Assembly (NCBI RefSeq): GCF_004340785.1
Contig: NZ_SLXS01000003.1
Coordinates: 529,689-593,688 of the forward strand
DNA from: Tumebacillus sp. BK434
GTDB taxonomy: Bacteria; Bacillota; Bacilli; Tumebacillales; Tumebacillaceae
DNA: 64,000 nucleotides
Direction of reading: 5' to 3'
Shown in pieces: positions 6,525 through 14,215 of this stretch; the first letter of the stretch is position 1, and the number at the start of each line of letters is the position of its first letter. The position numbers and the translations under genes were made by a program. The notes under the pieces were generated by a model. That model saw nothing but the letters and a program-made list of their open reading frames with translations. It made no database searches and had not been told where the DNA came from.

Positions 6525-7766
6525 TTATTGCGAAAACATGTGGCAAAAATCGGTATACATCGCCTGCAGCAGCTTGTTCGACTCCAGCAGTCTGCCGCCT
6601 TTAAAGGGAATCAGCGTGACATGTTCGGGCGTGACCGTCCGCATCGCTTCCTCCACATCGTGTACGCGCTGGGCGGTGATGATGAACCGCTTCGAGCGCA
6701 AAAACGTCGCAAACCCGATCACCGGATAGCGGTCCGCCTCCTCATAGAGGATCAAAAAGCGCTCTTTCGGATCTTTCGGGAACGTCTTCTCCAGCACTTC
6801 GAGCACGCGCTCGATCCCGATCATAAAGCCGGTCGCCGGCATCGGCCGCCCGAACTTGCCGAGCAGGTCGTCATAGCGCCCGCCCGAGCAGACCGGGAAG
6901 CCGACGTTCGGCGCATACCCTTCGAAGATCGCGCCTGTGTAGTAATGCCGGGACAACAGCAGCCCGAGATCGAGCTGCGCGTACTCCTCCACGTTGTACA
7001 GGACGAGGATCTGCCAGATCGTGCGCAGGTTCTCCAGCGCTTCCTGCGCCTGCGCCGAGGAGCTGAGCTGCGCCGCTTCTTCCAGCACGTCGATCCCGCC
7101 GCGCAGACGAGGCACGCGCAGCAGCACGTCGCGCGACGCTTCCGCTGCGACTTCCTGTTGCAGCAAGCGCTCATAACTGACGAAATCCTTGTCGGCCAGC
7201 GCCGCCGACAGCCGTTCCCGCACGCTCGCCTCTGCGACATGCTCCGCAAACAGCGCTTGCAAAAACTGCACCTGGCCGACGGCGATCCGAAACCCGCGCA
7301 CCCCGGCCGCTTCCAGCGCCGTCGCCGCCAGCGCGATCACGCCGGCGTCCGCATCGGGCGACGGATCGCCCATCAGCTCCACGCCCGCTTGCGTAAACTC
7401 CGCGTCGCGCCCGGCGACAGGGCCCTGCTGGCGGAAAATGCTCGCGTTGTAGGACAGGCGGATCGGCAGCGGGCGCTCTTTCATTAAGGAAGAGACCACC
7501 CGGGCGATCGGCGCCGTCATGTCCGGGCGCAGCACGACGGTGCGCCCCGAGCTTTCGATGAATTTGAACAGGTTGTCCTCATCATCACGGAATGCGCCGT
7601 TTAAAAACGTATCTGCATATTCGAACGTCGGTGTGACGATCTCTTCATAACCCCAATTGCGAAATACGGTCGCTATCTTTTTCTCAATCTCGCGCTTCCG
7701 AGCAGCCAGCGGCGGCAAGACATCGCGCACCCCGCGCGGCTTCTCGAACAGAATCGGTTTCTCCAC
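6525..7766 (-). CDS. hisZ: ATP phosphoribosyltransferase regulatory subunit HisZ
   Basis: This 413-residue protein is related to histidyl-tRNA synthetase and forms the octameric regulatory partner of short HisG, conveying histidine feedback. Class II synthetase-like motif 1 (FEKPRGVRDVLPP), motif 2 (LRPDMTAPIARVVSS with RLSYNASIFRQQ) and motif 3 (FMIGIERVLEVL) are visible. It is not a tRNA synthetase by context: it heads the his operon next to short HisG and lacks an anticodon-binding domain. A GTG at 7766 with GAGGTG 8 nt upstream is a better start than the GTG at 7775, which overlaps the ribosome site. Confidence 0.93.
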   Translation of the reverse strand: MEKPILFEKPRGVRDVLPPLAARKREIEKKIATVFRNWGYEEIVTPTFEYADTFLNGAFRDDEDNLFKFIESSGRTVVLRPDMTAPIARVVSSLMKERPLPIRLSYNASIFRQQGPVAGRDAEFTQAGVELMGDPSPDADAGVIALAATALEAAGVRGFRIAVGQVQFLQALFAEHVAEASVRERLSAALADKDFVSYERLLQQEVAAEASRDVLLRVPRLRGGIDVLEEAAQLSSSAQAQEALENLRTIWQILVLYNVEEYAQLDLGLLLSRHYYTGAIFEGYAPNVGFPVCSGGRYDDLLGKFGRPMPATGFMIGIERVLEVLEKTFPKDPKERFLILYEEADRYPVIGFATFLRSKRFIITAQRVHDVEEAMRTVTPEHVTLIPFKGGRLLESNKLLQAMYTDFCHMFSQ

Positions 7767-7784
7767 GTTTTCCACACCTCGATG

Positions 7785-7808
7785 CTTTAGTCTGCTAATG
7801 TACTAAAG
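7785..7808 (-). promoter_or_regulatory. Dyad in the his leader, candidate operator
   Basis: An inverted repeat CTTTAGT - 10 nt - ACTAAAG lies just downstream of the predicted his transcription start and 19 nt upstream of the hisZ GTG. It is too short for a convincing terminator and its position fits a repressor site. In Firmicutes a TrpR-family protein (YerC/HisR) is known to control his genes; assigning this site to it is inference. Confidence 0.45.
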
Positions 7809-7821
7809 AATTGCTATGGCT

Positions 7822-7850
7822 ATCCTAACATGACCGCGTACAGGTGTCAA
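7822..7850 (-). promoter_or_regulatory. Promoter of the his operon
   Basis: A consensus -35 TTGACA (7850-7845) is separated by exactly 17 nt from -10 TAGGAT (7827-7822), reading on the minus strand toward hisZ. The -35 overlaps the last codons of the small membrane gene ending at 7847. Confidence 0.8.
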
Positions 7851-7993
7851 CGCAGGACGCGCCAAGTCGTCAAAACGCCGGCCAGCATCACGTTCGCCGC
7901 GACCAACAGATGAATCCACAGCGGCAGCGTGTTCCACATCTTCACATCCCACAGCACGACGAGCGCCGTAAAGATGTAAAATGGCTTGATCAT
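7847..7993 (-). CDS. Small two-helix membrane protein, unknown function
   Basis: A 48-residue product beginning MIKPFYIFTALVVLWDVK with two hydrophobic stretches (about residues 4-15 and 22-40, IHLLVAANVMLAGVLTTW), so probably a membrane hairpin. The ATG at 7993 has a strong GGGAGGTG 8 nt upstream, which excludes the longer frame that opens at 8065. It lies directly upstream of the his promoter on the same strand and divergent from the radical SAM gene at 8142. I do not recognise a family; the good ribosome site and amphipathic pattern support a real gene. Confidence 0.6.
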   Translation of the reverse strand: MIKPFYIFTALVVLWDVKMWNTLPLWIHLLVAANVMLAGVLTTWRVLR

Positions 7994-8141
7994 GCTTCCA
8001 ACACCTCCCTGCAGCTTATCATCCCCCAAAACCCGATGGAAATTTAAAGAGTTACAAATTAACAAAATAACAGTGGCAATTGGGCTTACAATCAGTTAAT
8101 ATAGTTGTATTCGTAAAAACAAAAGGGAGGCGCATCAAGCA

Positions 8142-9290
8142 ATGTCCACGATTTCGAATGAAACGAACAGCAAAAAGAAGTTATCCGAACGTGAACGCCA
8201 GATGCAGCAGGAAGTACTGAAACGCTTTCGCTCCAAAGTCAGCCCGTCCTTGGGCAAGTTGGTTAAAGAATCTGACGCTGTAGCTAAACAGTTCATCCCG
8301 AGCCCTTATGAAGCGCTTGAATTCGGAACGGAAAAGCCGTTCGAAGAAGGCAAAAACAACCATGGCATCTACGGTCTGGAGCGCATCTACGAAGACCGCG
8401 CCGTGCTCACTCCGTATTTTGAATGTTCTGCATATTGCCGCTATTGCTTCAAAAAGACCCGCACCCTGGGTGGCGAAGCGAAGCGCATGACCGACGAAAA
8501 CATCGATGCGGCGATCGCCTACATCGGCTCTGACGCCCGCATCAAAACAGTTCTGATCACCGGCGGCGACCCGTTCATCGACGCGGAACTGCTCGAGCAG
8601 GTGCTGGTGAAAGTGGCGGAGATCCCGCACGTGCGCAACATCCGCGTCGGCACCCGCAACATCCTGTTCCAGCCGGAAGCGATCACCGACGAGCTGGCCG
8701 AAATGATCGCCCGCTTCAACCACATCGATTATGAGAATCCGAAAAACTCGCGCAACATCTCGGTCGGCCTGTCGATCAACCATCCGGACGAACTGACGCC
8801 GGACGTCATCCGCGCGGCGCAACGCTTCATCTCCCGCGGGATCATCATCCGCGGCCAGACCGTGCTGATGAAAGGCATCAACGACAATCCGGAGACGATC
8901 CTCGAGCTGATCTCGATGTTCCTCGCCGTCGGCATCGTGCCGTACTACCTGTTCCACTGCATGCCGGTCGTCGGCGCGAAGCACTTCCGCACCTCGGTGC
9001 AAAAAGGGATCGACATCCTCAACGCGATCTCCCGCTTCTCCGGCTCGACCGCGCCGCACTACGTCTACGTCACCCCGATCGGCAAACACCGCGTCGGCCC
9101 GGGCCACCAGCTCGAGTACGTGGAAATTGACGGCCTGACCTACATCAAGGCGACCACGCCGTACAAAGCGACCGACTTCCTCGAGTTCTCCGACAACGAG
9201 AACCTGCCGCCGCTGCATGAGATCAACGAAGAAGGCTATGTCGTCTCCTACTATTTGGATGGAGATGACAACGAACTGGAGGTTCTGTAA
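8142..9290 (+). CDS. KamA-type radical SAM aminomutase, probably not lysine-specific
   Basis: The 382-residue product belongs to the lysine 2,3-aminomutase family: the 4Fe-4S/SAM motif CxxxCxxC appears as CSAYCRYC near residue 97, followed by the SAM-binding TGGDP. The PLP-binding lysine of the family (PGGGGK in clostridial LAM) is matched by YVTPIGKHRVG near residue 315. The two aspartates that hold the lysine side-chain amine in LAM align with Met (HCMPVV) and Thr (VYVTP), so the substrate is probably another amino acid. GGGAGG precedes the ATG by about 11 nt. Two bases separate it from the ATP-grasp gene, then an MFS gene follows: an operon that could make and ligate a beta-amino acid. An activity outside aminomutation is possible. 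Confidence 0.85.
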   Translation: MSTISNETNSKKKLSERERQMQQEVLKRFRSKVSPSLGKLVKESDAVAKQFIPSPYEALEFGTEKPFEEGKNNHGIYGLERIYEDRAVLTPYFECSAYCRYCFKKTRTLGGEAKRMTDENIDAAIAYIGSDARIKTVLITGGDPFIDAELLEQVLVKVAEIPHVRNIRVGTRNILFQPEAITDELAEMIARFNHIDYENPKNSRNISVGLSINHPDELTPDVIRAAQRFISRGIIIRGQTVLMKGINDNPETILELISMFLAVGIVPYYLFHCMPVVGAKHFRTSVQKGIDILNAISRFSGSTAPHYVYVTPIGKHRVGPGHQLEYVEIDGLTYIKATTPYKATDFLEFSDNENLPPLHEINEEGYVVSYYLDGDDNELEVL

Positions 9291-9292
9291 GC

Positions 9293-10687
9293 ATGACGCA
9301 GAAAGCTTACGTTTTTATCGAAAACATGTACCCGCTCGTTCTGGCTCGCCGTGCCGTCATGGCGAAAGAGAAAGGGTACCACACCGTGCTGATCTCTCCT
9401 GCTCTTTCCGAGCAGGAGAAAAAGGCCATCCATGATTTTGAAACGCAGAAGAACAACAACGTTGCCATCTGGGACCAGTATTTCACCACCGACGATTTCG
9501 ACCTCGACACGCTGCGCGGCTTCCTGGCCCAGTTCGAAGAAGAAACGCCGGCCGCCGCCTTCATGACATCGATCGGCATGTTCCACAGAGGCGAGCTGGT
9601 CGGCTCGAACGTGGCGCTCCTCTGCGAAGAGCGCGGCCTGCCGTCTCCAAATTCGGATGCGGTGTTCCGCTGCAACAACAAATTCCTGATGCGCGACGCG
9701 CTCCGCGATCAAGGCGTGCCGACTGTCGACTTCGGTTTGGCGACCGATGAAGTGACGGCGGTGGAACACGCCAACCGCATCGGCTACCCGGTCATTTTGA
9801 AGCCGCTCAACGGCGCCGCTTCGCACATGATCGTCAAATGCACGAGTGACGAAGATCTGGTGAACAAGTTCCGCGACGCGATGGTGCGCCTGCCGAACTC
9901 GACCAACCTTCAAGCGTACAAGTCGGCGCACAGCTACCCGACGCGCGACGGCGTCGTGATCGACTTCGACCCGCTGCGCTCGATGCTGATCGAGCAGTAC
10001 ATCCCGGGCCGCGAAGCGAGCGTGGAACTGCTGATCACCGAGGATCAGATCTTCCCGCTGCTCGTGCACGACAAAGTGACGATGTCCGAAAAGGAACGCT
10101 GCTTCTACGAGCATCTGCTCGTCGTGCCGCCGCAGCGCTTCACCGACGAAGAAGTGCAAGAGATGAAAGACTACGCCGTCGCCGTCGCCAAAGCGGTCGG
10201 CTTGAAAAACACCTTCTCCCACGTCGAACTCCGCTACGGCGAGAACGGCATGGGGCCGCAGCTGCTGGAGATCAACCCGCGCATCGGCGGCATGTACGTG
10301 CAGGACAGCATCAAAGCGATGGTCGGAATCGACTCGATGTCCACCTGTGTCGAACTTGGCGAAGGCACGTTCCAAGCGGAAGCGGAGTACAAGTCGAGCG
10401 AAGAGATCCACGCGATGTTCACGATCTATCCGCCGCACTCCGGTCTGCTGGAGCAAGTTGACGGCTTGGAAGAGCTGGAGAAGCTGCCGGGGATGCTCAT
10501 GAGCAAGCAGACGATGCCAAACGGCGTGGTCATCCACGCCGAAGACGAAGAGTGCTTCGCCGTCATGTGCTTCCTCAAAGCAGAATCGTACGAGAAGGTC
10601 TATGAAATCTATGACCAGGCCTTGGAGATCGTGAAGTTCACCGTCAACCCGAACATCACCTCCAAGGAGGAAGCGGCGAACGTATGA
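9293..10687 (+). CDS. ATP-grasp carboxylate-amine ligase (first copy)
   Basis: A 464-residue ATP-grasp protein of the BacD / carnosine-synthase-like group, which joins a carboxylate to an amine via an acyl phosphate. Visible: an N-terminal Rossmann-like lobe (AYVFIENMYPLVLARRAVMA), ATP-binding lysines in NNKFLMRDAL and GYPVILKPLNGAAS, the adenine-binding region EQYIPGREASVELLI, and the metal-binding LEINPRIGG near residue 325. It follows the radical SAM gene after 2 nt and overlaps the MFS gene by 4 nt. The order aminomutase-ligase-exporter recalls the bacilysin-type arrangement of ligase plus MFS. Its substrates cannot be read from sequence. It is clearly paralogous to the ligase at 12219. 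Confidence 0.88.
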   Translation: MTQKAYVFIENMYPLVLARRAVMAKEKGYHTVLISPALSEQEKKAIHDFETQKNNNVAIWDQYFTTDDFDLDTLRGFLAQFEEETPAAAFMTSIGMFHRGELVGSNVALLCEERGLPSPNSDAVFRCNNKFLMRDALRDQGVPTVDFGLATDEVTAVEHANRIGYPVILKPLNGAASHMIVKCTSDEDLVNKFRDAMVRLPNSTNLQAYKSAHSYPTRDGVVIDFDPLRSMLIEQYIPGREASVELLITEDQIFPLLVHDKVTMSEKERCFYEHLLVVPPQRFTDEEVQEMKDYAVAVAKAVGLKNTFSHVELRYGENGMGPQLLEINPRIGGMYVQDSIKAMVGIDSMSTCVELGEGTFQAEAEYKSSEEIHAMFTIYPPHSGLLEQVDGLEELEKLPGMLMSKQTMPNGVVIHAEDEECFAVMCFLKAESYEKVYEIYDQALEIVKFTVNPNITSKEEAANV

Positions 10688-11961
10688 CGACAGCCGTCCA
10701 AACGCCGGATCACAAAAAAGTCTTCCGGCATCTGTACCAGCTGACAGCAGGCAAGACGATTTCCGACATTGGCAACAACTTTGACATGGTTGCGCTCAAC
10801 ATGTTCGTCTACCTGCTGACAGACAGCGCCGTCTACATGGGCTTGTTTATGGCGGTGCGCCTGGCCGGCGCGTTTGTCGCCGGTTTTTACGCCGGCATTC
10901 TCGCCGACCGAATGAATCGCAAACACCTGATGATCCTCTCCGACTTCGGACGGTCGGCCGCCTTGCTGGCGATCGTCCTGACGCCGACCGATTATCAGTT
11001 CTACGTGCTCATCCCGCTCACGTTTATCATGGGCTGCCTCTCCACGCTGTTTGGCGTGTGTCTGCAGTCCAGCATCCCTGCCATCGTCGGCAAAGAGAAC
11101 ATCGTCAAGGCCAACGCAGTGTTGACCGCCTGGGGTTCGGTGGCGATGGTGATCGGTCTGTTCGGCGCCGGGATGCTGCTCGGCAAGGTGTCGTATGAGA
11201 CGGTGTTTCTGATCGACGCCTGCACGTACGTCCTGTCGGCGCTGAACTTGCTGTCGATCCCGCTGCGCACGAATGAAGAGCGCGCAGTGGGCGCGACGAA
11301 GGAGAAGAACATGTCGTTCTTCGCCGAGTTCAAGCTGATCTATGTCTACCTGCGCACCGTTCCGATCCTCTTGTCCTTGATGGCGATCCGCCTGATCGAC
11401 ACGTTCGGCTCGGCGGCGCACAACGTCGGCATGCCGATCTTCTCGTCGCAGCTCAGGCCGGACCAGCCCTCGTTCTACATGGGGATCATCTGGGGCGTCT
11501 GGGGCATCGGCAACCTGATCGGCTCGCGGATCATGGCCAAGAAGTTCACCGGCAATGACACTTCGATCAACGAGCGGGCCTTCGGGATCGCGACGTTCTT
11601 CATGTCGCTGTTCTTCATCCTGCTGTTCTTCGAGAGCCCGATCTACATCATCTTGCTCTTCGCAGCGCTGGCCGGGATTGCAGACGGCGTGTCGGCGATC
11701 GTGTACGCCACCCGCCTGCAGCAGACGCCGGATGAGAAGCGCGGCCGCATGTTCGGTGTTTCCACGACGCTGCAGACGGTCGGTTTCGCCGTCGGGATGG
11801 TCATCTGCTCGCCGCTGTTTGAAATTTTCAAACCCGTAGCGGTCGTCGGCATGCTGCACGGACTGCCGATGATCATGGCGCTGCTGTTCACCTTGTATTA
11901 TTTCGGGAAGTGGAAGCTAAACCGCACGGTCAAGACAGAAAACAGCCACGATGTCGCTTAG
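10684..11961 (+). CDS. MFS transporter, probable product exporter
   Basis: A 425-residue major facilitator with about 12 hydrophobic segments. The loop 2-3 signature appears as GILADRMNRKHLMI near residue 77, and the second half repeats it as a degenerate form around MAKKFTGNDTS. It resembles the EntS-like MFS_3 drug/siderophore efflux branch more than nutrient uptake carriers. It overlaps the ATP-grasp gene by 4 nt, so ligase and transporter are coupled; self-resistance or export of the ligase product is the likely role. Its last codons and stop are built into a terminator hairpin. Confidence 0.88.
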   Translation: MTTAVQTPDHKKVFRHLYQLTAGKTISDIGNNFDMVALNMFVYLLTDSAVYMGLFMAVRLAGAFVAGFYAGILADRMNRKHLMILSDFGRSAALLAIVLTPTDYQFYVLIPLTFIMGCLSTLFGVCLQSSIPAIVGKENIVKANAVLTAWGSVAMVIGLFGAGMLLGKVSYETVFLIDACTYVLSALNLLSIPLRTNEERAVGATKEKNMSFFAEFKLIYVYLRTVPILLSLMAIRLIDTFGSAAHNVGMPIFSSQLRPDQPSFYMGIIWGVWGIGNLIGSRIMAKKFTGNDTSINERAFGIATFFMSLFFILLFFESPIYIILLFAALAGIADGVSAIVYATRLQQTPDEKRGRMFGVSTTLQTVGFAVGMVICSPLFEIFKPVAVVGMLHGLPMIMALLFTLYYFGKWKLNRTVKTENSHDVA

Positions 11962-11979
11962 ACATCGTGGCTGTTTCTC
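11941..11979 (+). terminator. Terminator overlapping the MFS stop codon
   Basis: A perfect 15-bp stem (11941-11955 with 11961-11975) has a 5-nt loop that contains most of the TAG stop codon (11959-11961) and is followed by TTTCTCGTT. It ends the radical SAM-ligase-MFS transcript, so the second ligase at 12219 needs its own promoter. Confidence 0.85.
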
Positions 11980-11992
11980 GTTAGGAACACGA

Positions 11993-12063
11993 AGACGCCG
12001 CTCTGCTGTTTCCTCTTCTGTCGATTCTGCGAAGCAGGCCCCCCGGCCGAACAGCGGGCGTCT
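11993..12063 (+). other. Possible structured RNA element in the 257-nt gap before the second ligase
   Basis: Two nested complementary pairs, AGACGCC/GGCGTCT (11993-11999 with 12057-12063) and GCTGTT/AACAGC (12005-12010 with 12050-12055), could fold into a long stem; a short CTGC-GAA-GCAG hairpin lies inside. No known RNA family was recognised. Confidence 0.25.
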
Positions 12064-12165
12064 CCTGCCCGTAATTTTCTACACCTGCTACTTTATTCCT
12101 GCCATCGACTTGGTAAAATTGTCCTACCAGGCAGGTTTGCACTGGTGATTTGATAAAGTAGTATG

Positions 12166-12171
12166 TATAAT
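12166..12171 (+). promoter_or_regulatory. -10 box upstream of the second ATP-grasp gene
   Basis: A perfect TATAAT lies about 48 nt before the ATG at 12219. The best -35 at 17-nt spacing (TGGTGA, 12143-12148) is weak, so the promoter call depends mainly on the -10 box and on the terminator upstream that forces independent transcription. Confidence 0.5.
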
Positions 12172-12218
12172 ATGATTAATAATCACTTCATCACTTTATA
12201 CTTATTGGAGGTCAATCG

Positions 12219-13604
12219 ATGAGCCGCCCGAAAGCTGTCGTCTTTATTGACAATAACATGCCGCTGACACTTACGCTCCGCGCCGCCTATGCCCAAGACC
12301 AAGGTTATCTCACCTTCCTCGTGTCGCCCGAATTTGAAGAGCACGTGCTCGCCCTCATTGACAATTTTGTCGTCAACAAGCGCGAAGGCATTCCGCTCTA
12401 CACACGCCGTTACGCCACGCAGGACTTCGACCGGACGACCCTGCAGAACATCCTCGCCGAAATCGAGCAGGAAGCCGACATCGCCGGTATGATCACCGGC
12501 AACGGGCCGTTCTGCAAAGACGGTCTGGTCTGTGCCCACGTTGCCGCGCTGGCTGCGGAGCGCGGCCTGCCTTCTCAAGGCGAAGCAGCGCTGTATCTCG
12601 CCAACAACAAGTACCTGATGCGCGACAAGTTCCGCGCGACCGGGGTCAACACGATCGATTTCGGACTCGCCCTCGATGAAGCGTCGGCGGCGGCCGAAGC
12701 CAACCGCATCGGCTACCCCGTGCTGATGAAGCCGATCAACGGCGTCGCGTCGCATCTGATCATGAAATGCAACAGCGCAGAAGAAGTGGTCGCCAACTTC
12801 CGCCATGCGATGGAGAAGCTGCCCGGCTCCACTTTCCAATCCTTCTATGAAGGGGCACACTCCTTCCCGAACGCCCAAGGTGAGCTGGTGCATTTCGATC
12901 CGATGCGCTGCCTGCTCCTCGAGCAATACATCCCGGGCCGTGAAGTGGCGGTGGAAGTCCTGATCACCGAAGACCGCTACATCCCGCTCGTGGTGCAGGA
13001 CAAGGCGGTGCTGACCGAGGACGGGCGCAGCGTATACGAAGACCTGCTGATCACCCCGCCGGTGCGCTTCACAGAAGAGGAGTGCCGCGAACTGGAAGCT
13101 TGTGCCGTCGCAGCGGCGCAGGCGATCGGACTGAAAAATTCGATCGCGCACATCGAGCTGCGCTACGGCGAAAACGGCCTCGGGCCGCAAGTGCTCGAGA
13201 TCAACTCGCGGATTGGCGGCGGCTTTACGCATGAAGTCTTGCGCTCGATCGTCGACGTGGATTATGTCAGCACGTACGTCGAGCTGATGACCGGCACCTA
13301 CCAGGCGAAAGCGCACTACGAGCGCAAAAACGATCCGCACGGCTTCTTCATCCTGTTCGCCCCGCACGCCGGTTTCTACGAATCGATCGAAGGGCTCGAC
13401 GAATTGAAAGCGATGCCGGGCGTGATCAGCACGATGCAGCCGTTCCCGGTCGGCTCGCAGATCTCCGGCGACGAAGAAGAGGTGTTTCTGCTGATGGCGT
13501 GGATGAAAGTCGACAACTACGAGCATCTGCTGTCCACCTATCAGAAAGCGAAAGAGATCATCAAATTCAAGATTACGCCGAACGAGACCTCCGTGCAGGC
13601 CTAA
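12219..13604 (+). CDS. ATP-grasp carboxylate-amine ligase (second copy)
   Basis: A 461-residue paralogue of the ligase at 9293, alike along its whole length: VVFIDNNMPLTLTLRAAYA, ANNKYLMRDKFRATGV, GYPVLMKPINGVASHLI, EQYIPGREVAVEVLI. The metal-binding motif reads LEINSRIGG (Ser where the first copy has Pro). TTGGAGG stands 8 nt before the ATG. It lies 257 nt after the MFS gene with its own terminator on both sides, so it is a separate unit on the same strand. A role in adding another residue to the product of the first ligase is inference; it might also act on a different amine. A shared origin by tandem duplication, with the MFS gene between, is likely. Confidence 0.87.
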   Translation: MSRPKAVVFIDNNMPLTLTLRAAYAQDQGYLTFLVSPEFEEHVLALIDNFVVNKREGIPLYTRRYATQDFDRTTLQNILAEIEQEADIAGMITGNGPFCKDGLVCAHVAALAAERGLPSQGEAALYLANNKYLMRDKFRATGVNTIDFGLALDEASAAAEANRIGYPVLMKPINGVASHLIMKCNSAEEVVANFRHAMEKLPGSTFQSFYEGAHSFPNAQGELVHFDPMRCLLLEQYIPGREVAVEVLITEDRYIPLVVQDKAVLTEDGRSVYEDLLITPPVRFTEEECRELEACAVAAAQAIGLKNSIAHIELRYGENGLGPQVLEINSRIGGGFTHEVLRSIVDVDYVSTYVELMTGTYQAKAHYERKNDPHGFFILFAPHAGFYESIEGLDELKAMPGVISTMQPFPVGSQISGDEEEVFLLMAWMKVDNYEHLLSTYQKAKEIIKFKITPNETSVQA

Positions 13605-13607
13605 ACA

Positions 13608-13639
13608 AAAACCCTCTCCGTGTTTGCGGAGAGGGTTTT
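13608..13639. terminator. Bidirectional terminator
   Basis: A 13-bp perfect stem (AAAACCCTCTCCG with its complement, 6-nt loop) provides T runs on both strands. It lies between the convergent second ligase (stop 13604) and the acyltransferase gene (stop 13646). Confidence 0.9.
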
Positions 13640-13645
13640 GCGAGC

Positions 13646-14215
13646 TTAATGCAAGATCGTGCTGGTATCATCTTCCGGCGCTTCTGCCGCCTCGTCCGCT
13701 TCGACCAGTCGGCCGCGCGGCGGGGTCATGTCGACGCCTTCGCGGATCACGCGGATCGGGTTGCCGCCGACAAAGGCGCCTGGCGCCACATCGCGGTTGA
13801 CGACGGAGCCGGCAGCGATCACCGCACCGTCGCCGATCGTGATGCCGGGGAGCAGGGTCGAGTTGGCCCCGATCATCACGTTGTCGCCGATGATGACACG
13901 GCCGAGGCGGTATTCGTCGGTCAGGTATTCATGAGCGAGGATCGTCGTGTTGTAGCCGATGATCGTGTTGCGGCCCACAGAGATCAGCTCCGGGAACATC
14001 ACATCCATCATCACCATCAAAGCGACCGCCGTATCCTCGCCGACCTCCATGCCCAAAAAGGTGCGGTAGAGCCAATTTTTCAGCTTCAAAAACGGCGTGT
14101 AGCGGGAGATCTGAATCACCGCAAAGTTCTTCACGACCTTCCAAAAGCTGACCGTCTTATAAATCTGCCACAGGGCGTTCGACCCTTCGACAGGATAACG
14201 AACCGTATTGCGCAT
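13646..14215 (-). CDS. yvoF: Left-handed beta-helix acyltransferase, YvoF-like
   Basis: The 189-residue product has the hexapeptide repeats of the LbH acetyltransferase superfamily (residues about 75-155: ISVGRNTIIGYNTTILAHEY, VIIGDNVMIGANSTLLPGITIGDGAVIAAGSVVNRDV) and the usual tail PIRVIRE. ATG 14215 lies 5 nt after the ppaX stop; the longer frame upstream overlaps ppaX and is not used. In B. subtilis yvoF sits between ppaX and hisZ, and here it also follows ppaX, but the radical SAM cassette separates it from hisZ. The acyl acceptor is unknown. Last gene of the yvoD-ppaX-yvoF unit. Confidence 0.85.
   Translation of the reverse strand: MRNTVRYPVEGSNALWQIYKTVSFWKVVKNFAVIQISRYTPFLKLKNWLYRTFLGMEVGEDTAVALMVMMDVMFPELISVGRNTIIGYNTTILAHEYLTDEYRLGRVIIGDNVMIGANSTLLPGITIGDGAVIAAGSVVNRDVAPGAFVGGNPIRVIREGVDMTPPRGRLVEADEAAEAPEDDTSTILH

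Follow-up and report, generated by a model that had tools for sequence, protein, structure and literature searches.

A rare, co-inherited aminomutase–ligase–transporter module in Tumebacillus with a predicted role in making and exporting a ligated beta-amino acid

Introduction

The 64,000-nucleotide stretch analyzed here (Tumebacillus sp. BK434, contig NZ_SLXS01000003.1, positions 529,689 to 593,688; hereafter the window) belongs to a Tumebacillus-type genome whose closest named relative is Tumebacillus avium, with a KamA protein 96% identical. It carries a run of genes for a KamA-like radical S-adenosylmethionine (SAM) enzyme, an ATP-grasp ligase (ligase A), a major facilitator superfamily (MFS) transporter, and a ligase A paralogue (ligase B). 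We are nearly certain that the first three, the KamA-ligase-MFS triad, are a real, rare, and co-inherited unit. What the unit does is less firmly established, and we favor, as the probable reading, a module that turns an alpha- into a beta-amino acid, joins it to a partner in an amide, and exports the product. A more specific proposal is that the KamA clade naturally acts as a 2,3-aminomutase on a neutral amino acid and works with a ligase and an exporter to yield a secreted beta-amino-acid pseudo-dipeptide. Such a system would be the smallest known of its kind, mobile, antibiotic- or signal-type, and free of nonribosomal peptide synthetase (NRPS) and polyketide synthase (PKS) genes. We put this proposal forward tentatively, as an idea that could well be wrong in one of its parts. 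To our knowledge, 2,3-aminomutase specificity for a neutral amino acid is known only from engineered enzymes.

Results

Co-inheritance of three genes

The gene neighborhood search proposed in an earlier note on this DNA reveals a conserved triad across genera of Bacilli and beyond. Fourteen genomes, which come from Bacilli and Myxococcota and include one deltaproteobacterial metagenome-assembled genome (MAG), have the KamA, ligase, and MFS genes in identical order. The carriers among Bacilli are three genomes of the window's genus including its own, Tumebacillus permanentifrigoris, three Brevibacillus-type genomes, two Kroppenstedtia-type genomes, G065, and Caldalkalibacillus mannanilyticus, while those outside are two Archangium-type genomes and the MAG, where the MFS gene runs off the contig. 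The flanks of the triad differ from lineage to lineage, and the neighbor genes of the other copies, examined as a clue to the product, are unrelated in each genome.

Of 399 evenly sampled Bacilli genomes, 13 contain this KamA (E <1e-80) and 12 this ligase (E <1e-40), with all 12 ligase genomes falling within the 13 and the two genes adjacent in every one. The pairwise identities between copies also rise and fall together (KamA-ligase r 0.95, KamA-MFS r 0.98, ligase-MFS r 0.96). The distribution is sporadic, reaching about 3% of the sampled Bacilli. In a wider phylum sample of 398 genomes the window's own genome is the sole carrier, two of 147 genomes in the class of Archangium carry the triad, and only a Pseudolabrys copy reaches a clade-level score among 172 Pseudomonadota genomes. 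Together, these patterns are those of a triad that appears to be a self-contained, horizontally moving module.

No plasmid match was found at 60% identity or above. Among plasmid records, the ligase A search returned one outlying match, the ligase of Burkholderia cenocepacia NZ_CP091013, which belongs to a deeply diverged triad of the same order that carries no annotation in its record (NZ_CP091013.1, L128, 10472-15070; KamA 28%, ligase 32%, and MFS 29% identical). A KamA-like radical SAM gene (30%) is also found in a different context on the viral contig IMGVR_UViG_3300029305_001653 (L107, 2344-7460), where it adjoins genes that by eye are deacetylase-like, adenylating-enzyme-like, and glycosyltransferase-like, a possible phage-borne biosynthetic island.

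A separate clade of KamA enzymes

By both sequence and fold, the best solved relative of the cassette KamA is lysine 2,3-aminomutase (LAM, KamA/AblA; 2a5h), which matches at E 1e-24 in a fold search where the next unrelated structure appears at 5e-7. The radical SAM cysteines C95, C99, and C102 and the lysine K315, at the position of the pyridoxal phosphate (PLP) lysine K337 of LAM, are invariant in cassette copies, and these residues and the fold support a predicted conversion of an alpha- to a beta-amino acid through a radical shift that uses SAM and PLP. The cassette protein departs from LAM in other respects: D293 is replaced by Met, D330 by Val, and R134 by Lys, there is an 11-residue insertion near residue 195, and the C-terminal part is without cysteines.

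A rapidly built tree, in which some branches are long, separates the cassette KamA proteins from lysine and glutamate 2,3-aminomutases at a branch with support 99, and we place them in what appears to be a separate clade of the KamA family. Their scores against NCBIfam models are low. The window protein reaches 198 bits against TIGR04368 for glutamate 2,3-aminomutase (EAM), its top score (cut-off 650), 177 against TIGR03820 for LAM (cut-off 525), 185 against TIGR04468 for the arginine 2,3-aminomutase BlsG (cut-off 600), and 135 against TIGR03821 for EpmB (cut-off 369). Even the broad family model TIGR00238 gives 177 bits against a cut-off of 199, though no other fold matches nearly as well as LAM. 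Every equivalog cut-off is missed by such a distance that naming the protein a lysine, glutamate, or arginine aminomutase would be unwarranted.

The expected substrate class is read from the substitutions at D293 and D330. We take these residues of 2a5h to bind the epsilon-ammonium of the lysine side chain. EAM has Lys and Asn there, and the EAM-like protein in our alignment agrees. The cassette enzymes have Met274 and Val310 in 13 of 13 aligned copies, from Bacilli to an archaeal MAG and down to 43% identity. Because both acidic lysine-binding residues are invariantly Met and Val, the substrate probably has a neutral, alanine- or leucine-like side chain, against lysine, glutamate, and arginine. 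LAM variants that have been engineered to act as alanine 2,3-aminomutases carry a change at the D330 position. The diverged B. cenocepacia KamA has Met at D293, Pro at D330, and Glu at the R134 position.

Ligases and transporter

Ligase A is predicted to be an ATP-grasp enzyme of the L-amino-acid ligase (LAL) type. Its AlphaFold2 model (mean confidence, pLDDT, 91.9) finds as best PDB fold the L-amino acid ligase BL00235 (3vot; E 2e-30, TM 0.74/0.82), followed by matches including 4dim, BacD, and RizA. The fold and catalytic residues resemble those of BL00235, at an identity of only 19%, and the score against the BacD model NF053745 is 29 bits (cut-off 850). Ligase A shares the BL00235/BacD fold, the ATP-grasp catalytic residues (E312, E326, N328, and R330, invariant in the ligase), and the LAL C-terminal domain, LAL_C2, which scores above its cut-off in ligase A and below it in ligase B. 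Fold and residues support a predicted amide bond formation via acyl phosphate chemistry.

The ligase B clade is confined to the window's genus, with one copy here, one in T. avium, and two in G002, and ligase B would be a local elaboration, a genus-specific paralogue. At position 334, which corresponds to the specificity-determining Trp332 of BacD (mutated in PDB entry 3wo1), ligase A has Met and ligase B has Gly, and this difference suggests that the two ligases differ in their second substrate.

The MFS protein resembles the efflux families TIGR00900, EntS, and Mef, in each case below the cut-off. It is co-inherited with KamA, and nearly all copies of the module include an exporter-type MFS. 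Family resemblance and linkage therefore point to a transporter that would export the product.

Locus architecture

The earlier note had described four plus-strand open reading frames, the first pair separated by a 2-nt gap and the second by a 4-nt overlap, between minus-strand hisZ and yvoF, and this layout is borne out (Table 1). Its proposal of a single four-gene cassette is not. A hairpin with a folding energy of -29.6 kcal/mol (z -8.3) sits between the MFS gene and ligase B, and another follows ligase B. Because of these terminators, transcription appears to comprise a three-gene KamA-ligase A-MFS operon and a separate ligase B gene. The related expectation that all four genes travel together accordingly stands for the first three, given that the ligase is KamA-adjacent in all 12 Bacilli genomes that have it, and fails for ligase B. 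Comparison with T. avium gives dN/dS values of 0.08 for KamA, 0.15 for ligase A, 0.07 for the MFS gene, 0.22 for ligase B, and 0.10 for hisZ, indicating that all four cassette genes are under purifying selection. A riboswitch or T-box might have named the amino acid, and there was no Rfam match in the window; the scanned region held no plus-strand match to the promoter consensus.

Table 1. Coordinates of the cassette, its key codons, and its flanks, numbered from the first nucleotide of the window. The start of the yvoF-type gene is taken from relatives; its open reading frame extends to 14368.
Feature	Position	Strand	Basis
KamA-like radical SAM/PLP 2,3-aminomutase (predicted), 382 aa, operon gene 1	8142..9290	+	Pfam Radical_SAM
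Radical SAM CxxxCxxC codons (C95, C99, C102)	8424..8447	+	Invariant across cassette copies
Met274 codon, at LAM Asp293 position	8961..8963	+	Alignments to 2a5h and LAM; invariant in clade
Val310 codon, at LAM Asp330 position	9069..9071	+	Alignments to 2a5h and LAM; invariant in clade
Lys315 codon, at position of LAM PLP lysine K337	9084..9086	+	Alignments to 2a5h and LAM; invariant in clade
Ligase A, ATP-grasp, L-amino-acid ligase type (predicted), 464 aa	9293..10687	+	Pfam ATP-grasp_4/LAL_C2; AlphaFold2 fold match
MFS transporter, exporter type (predicted), 425 aa	10684..11961	+	Pfam MFS_1; TIGR00900/EntS-like, sub-threshold
Intrinsic terminator hairpin, overlapping MFS 3' end, closing the three-gene operon	11940..11976	+	z -8.3
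Ligase B, ligase A paralogue, separate unit, genus-specific, 461 aa	12219..13604	+	Pfam ATP-grasp_4; 47% identity to ligase A
Intrinsic terminator hairpin 3' of ligase B	13608..13639	+	z -5.3
hisZ, flanking housekeeping gene, outside module	6525..7775	-	Gene call and neighborhood comparison
yvoF-type hexapeptide acetyltransferase, flank, outside module	13646..14215	-	NCBIfam NF058585

Insertion beside hisZ

In three relatives from the same family and order that lack the cassette (G005, G007, and G010), yvoF lies directly upstream of hisZ, which confirms the earlier note's view of a yvoF-hisZ syntenic block and identifies the cassette as an apparent insertion into it. In T. permanentifrigoris the triad lies at another genomic place, while in G003 and G006 the region upstream of hisZ is taken up by other genes. 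Since the site is empty in near relatives and the triad is found elsewhere in T. permanentifrigoris, the his neighborhood is a landing place and no clue to function. A link to histidine biosynthesis, such as a carnosine-like beta-alanyl-histidine product, was considered and is not supported, given the empty site in near relatives, the other copies elsewhere, and the RdgB-like and PyrD-like genes (by eye) that lie between hisZ and the cassette in G065.

The contents of the region upstream of hisZ also differ between Tumebacillus-type genomes (window 7775-13646; L102, 2620-7035; L104, 1-6209). They comprise the cassette, a pair of 1091-aa and 376-aa secreted-type proteins, and FHA/kinase-type genes, much like a recurrent insertion site.

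Discussion

Proposed pathway

In the pathway that we favor, the KamA-like enzyme would use SAM, a [4Fe-4S] cluster, and PLP to shift an amino group from C2 to C3, turning an alpha- into a beta-amino acid. The ATP-grasp ligase would then activate a carboxylate as an acyl phosphate and form an amide of the beta-amino acid and a second amino acid, a pseudo-dipeptide, which the MFS protein would pump out, thereby also shielding the producer. Within the window's genus, the duplicated ligase B may add a second acceptor or a second ligation. What we observe are the gene order, the co-inheritance, the clade, the conserved catalytic residues, and the predicted folds; the substrate class, the order of steps, the amide product, export, and the biological role are what we infer. 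The mobility, rarity, and exporter of the module make an antimetabolite or a signal the most likely role for its product.

Several observations weigh against this pathway. In one genome, G145, the MFS gene comes directly after KamA and the locus has no ligase (L071, 5920-8403); no related ligase was found in that genome at E 1e-40. Alicyclobacillus montanus and the Pseudolabrys MAG hold KamA and the ligase without this MFS, and a Diapherotrites MAG has KamA alone. These incomplete sets indicate that the three genes are not obligate partners, and in lineages such as G145 the beta-amino acid itself may be exported. As for the enzyme, the cassette KamA has Lys in place of R134, which binds the carboxylate in LAM, and its glycine loop preceding the PLP lysine is shorter by two residues. 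The KamA model has low confidence over residues 103-108, and the assignment of a substrate class is based on two positions.

Alternative explanations

All characterized 2,3-aminomutases of the family take lysine, glutamate, or arginine, and the cassette enzyme might do so too with its substrate bound differently, in which case the product would be a beta-lysine-, beta-glutamate-, or beta-arginine-type peptide. Such a charged substrate would fit the top NCBIfam score, which is that of the EAM model, and the likeness of the FHCMPV loop to FHSKPV in the EAM-like protein. We nonetheless judge it unlikely, because the three scores lie far below their cut-offs (198/650, 177/525, and 185/600) and both side-chain ligands are invariantly Met and Val, as opposed to Lys and Asn in EAM.

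EpmB, a KamA relative, is partnered with a ligase in the beta-lysylation of elongation factor P (EF-P), and certain ATP-grasp enzymes act on peptides, as is known for these families, so KamA and the ligase could modify a protein or a ribosomal peptide, in the manner of EpmB-EpmA or the graspetide ligases, with the MFS protein a bystander. This is hard to reconcile with an MFS gene that is co-inherited with KamA (r 0.98) and retained in G145 without the ligase. The ligase moreover folds like enzymes that join free amino acids, the EpmB model gives 135 bits where its cut-off is 369, and the copies have no small peptide gene or target gene that recurs beside them, all of which leaves protein or peptide modification an improbable account. 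We find it very improbable that the module makes a compatible solute or serves a catabolic or salvage route with the MFS protein as importer. N-epsilon-acetyl-beta-lysine and beta-glutamate are known osmolytes, the former made via a KamA enzyme, and in A. montanus (L054, 4076-6957) genes for an M20 peptidase and an amino acid permease follow KamA and the ligase on the same strand. The MFS protein, however, resembles efflux families, the distribution is sporadic, and no AblB-type acetyltransferase was found beside the window KamA or among the Pfam-scanned neighbors of other copies. The earlier note had proposed a beta-amino acid that is made, ligated, and exported, and with a co-inherited KamA, a LAL-type ligase, and an exporter-type MFS this is still the best reading; its suggestion of an osmolyte-like product is not supported.

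Known systems

The earlier note knew of no described pathway with this gene set, and here it overlooked a close parallel. In Pseudomonas syringae pv. phaseolicola, one operon of the Pbo cluster holds pboE (MFS), pboF (a LAM-like radical SAM gene), and pboG (ATP-grasp) as direct neighbors (PMC8473136; also covered in review PMC11278893). Polar mutants of pboE and pboG lose phaseolotoxin production, and the Pbo product is proposed to be a secondary metabolite, possibly a signal (PMC8473136). Likened by gene descriptions (Table 1 of PMC8473136), the Tumebacillus triad has the same adjacent MFS, LAM-like, and LAL-like genes. The best templates for pboF and pboG (AAZ35479, AAZ36161), Clostridium subterminale LAM and a Bacillus licheniformis L-amino acid ligase, are the same as here, and Pbo also lies on a mobile island with a sporadic distribution. 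The two differ in that Pbo has the order MFS-KamA-ligase within a 16-gene NRPS/PKS cluster with a 2-oxoglutarate oxygenase, whereas the Tumebacillus triad is stand-alone. This kind of module is thus already published in outline, without a function, and the stand-alone form and its KamA clade appear to be the new part. The literature searched gave no description of either, nor any paper pairing '3-aminomutase' with 'ATP-grasp'.

Other systems share two of the three parts. The bacilysin pair BacD-BacE likewise sets a LAL-type ATP-grasp enzyme, one of the top ligase A folds, beside an MFS exporter, but it has no aminomutase, and anticapsin derives from prephenate. On a plasmid of Rhizobium sp. 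NLR16a (p4, L129, 7770-10374), a KamA-family gene adjoins a LAL-like ATP-grasp gene. This KamA differs from the cassette clade in keeping an acid at D293, with Cys at D330, and in being of the standard family (TIGR00238, 333 bits), and no MFS of the triad type adjoins the pair.

Rhizobial plasmids offer other arrangements as well. Across the loci of NLR16a (L129) and Rhizobium leguminosarum (L131, 824-3408), an ATP-grasp gene stands beside KamA and, elsewhere, an ATP-grasp gene overlaps a MATE exporter gene, arrangements that appear to be further ligase-based small-molecule modules. On a plasmid of Rhizobium sp. 007 (L130), a 9-kb span close to insertion sequences contains three separate ATP-grasp genes.

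Conclusions

A cassette of three genes without NRPS, PKS, or ribosomally synthesized and post-translationally modified peptide (RiPP) genes belongs to a kind of module that cluster finders likely miss. If our reading is true, the cassette would be a practical source of enzymes for forming and ligating beta-amino acids, and it would offer a route into the P. syringae Pbo product, since a stand-alone module is simpler to reconstitute. It would also supply a native enzyme for an aminomutase specificity that has so far been without one, and would mean that three genes are enough for a cell to produce and secrete a novel type of small beta-peptide.

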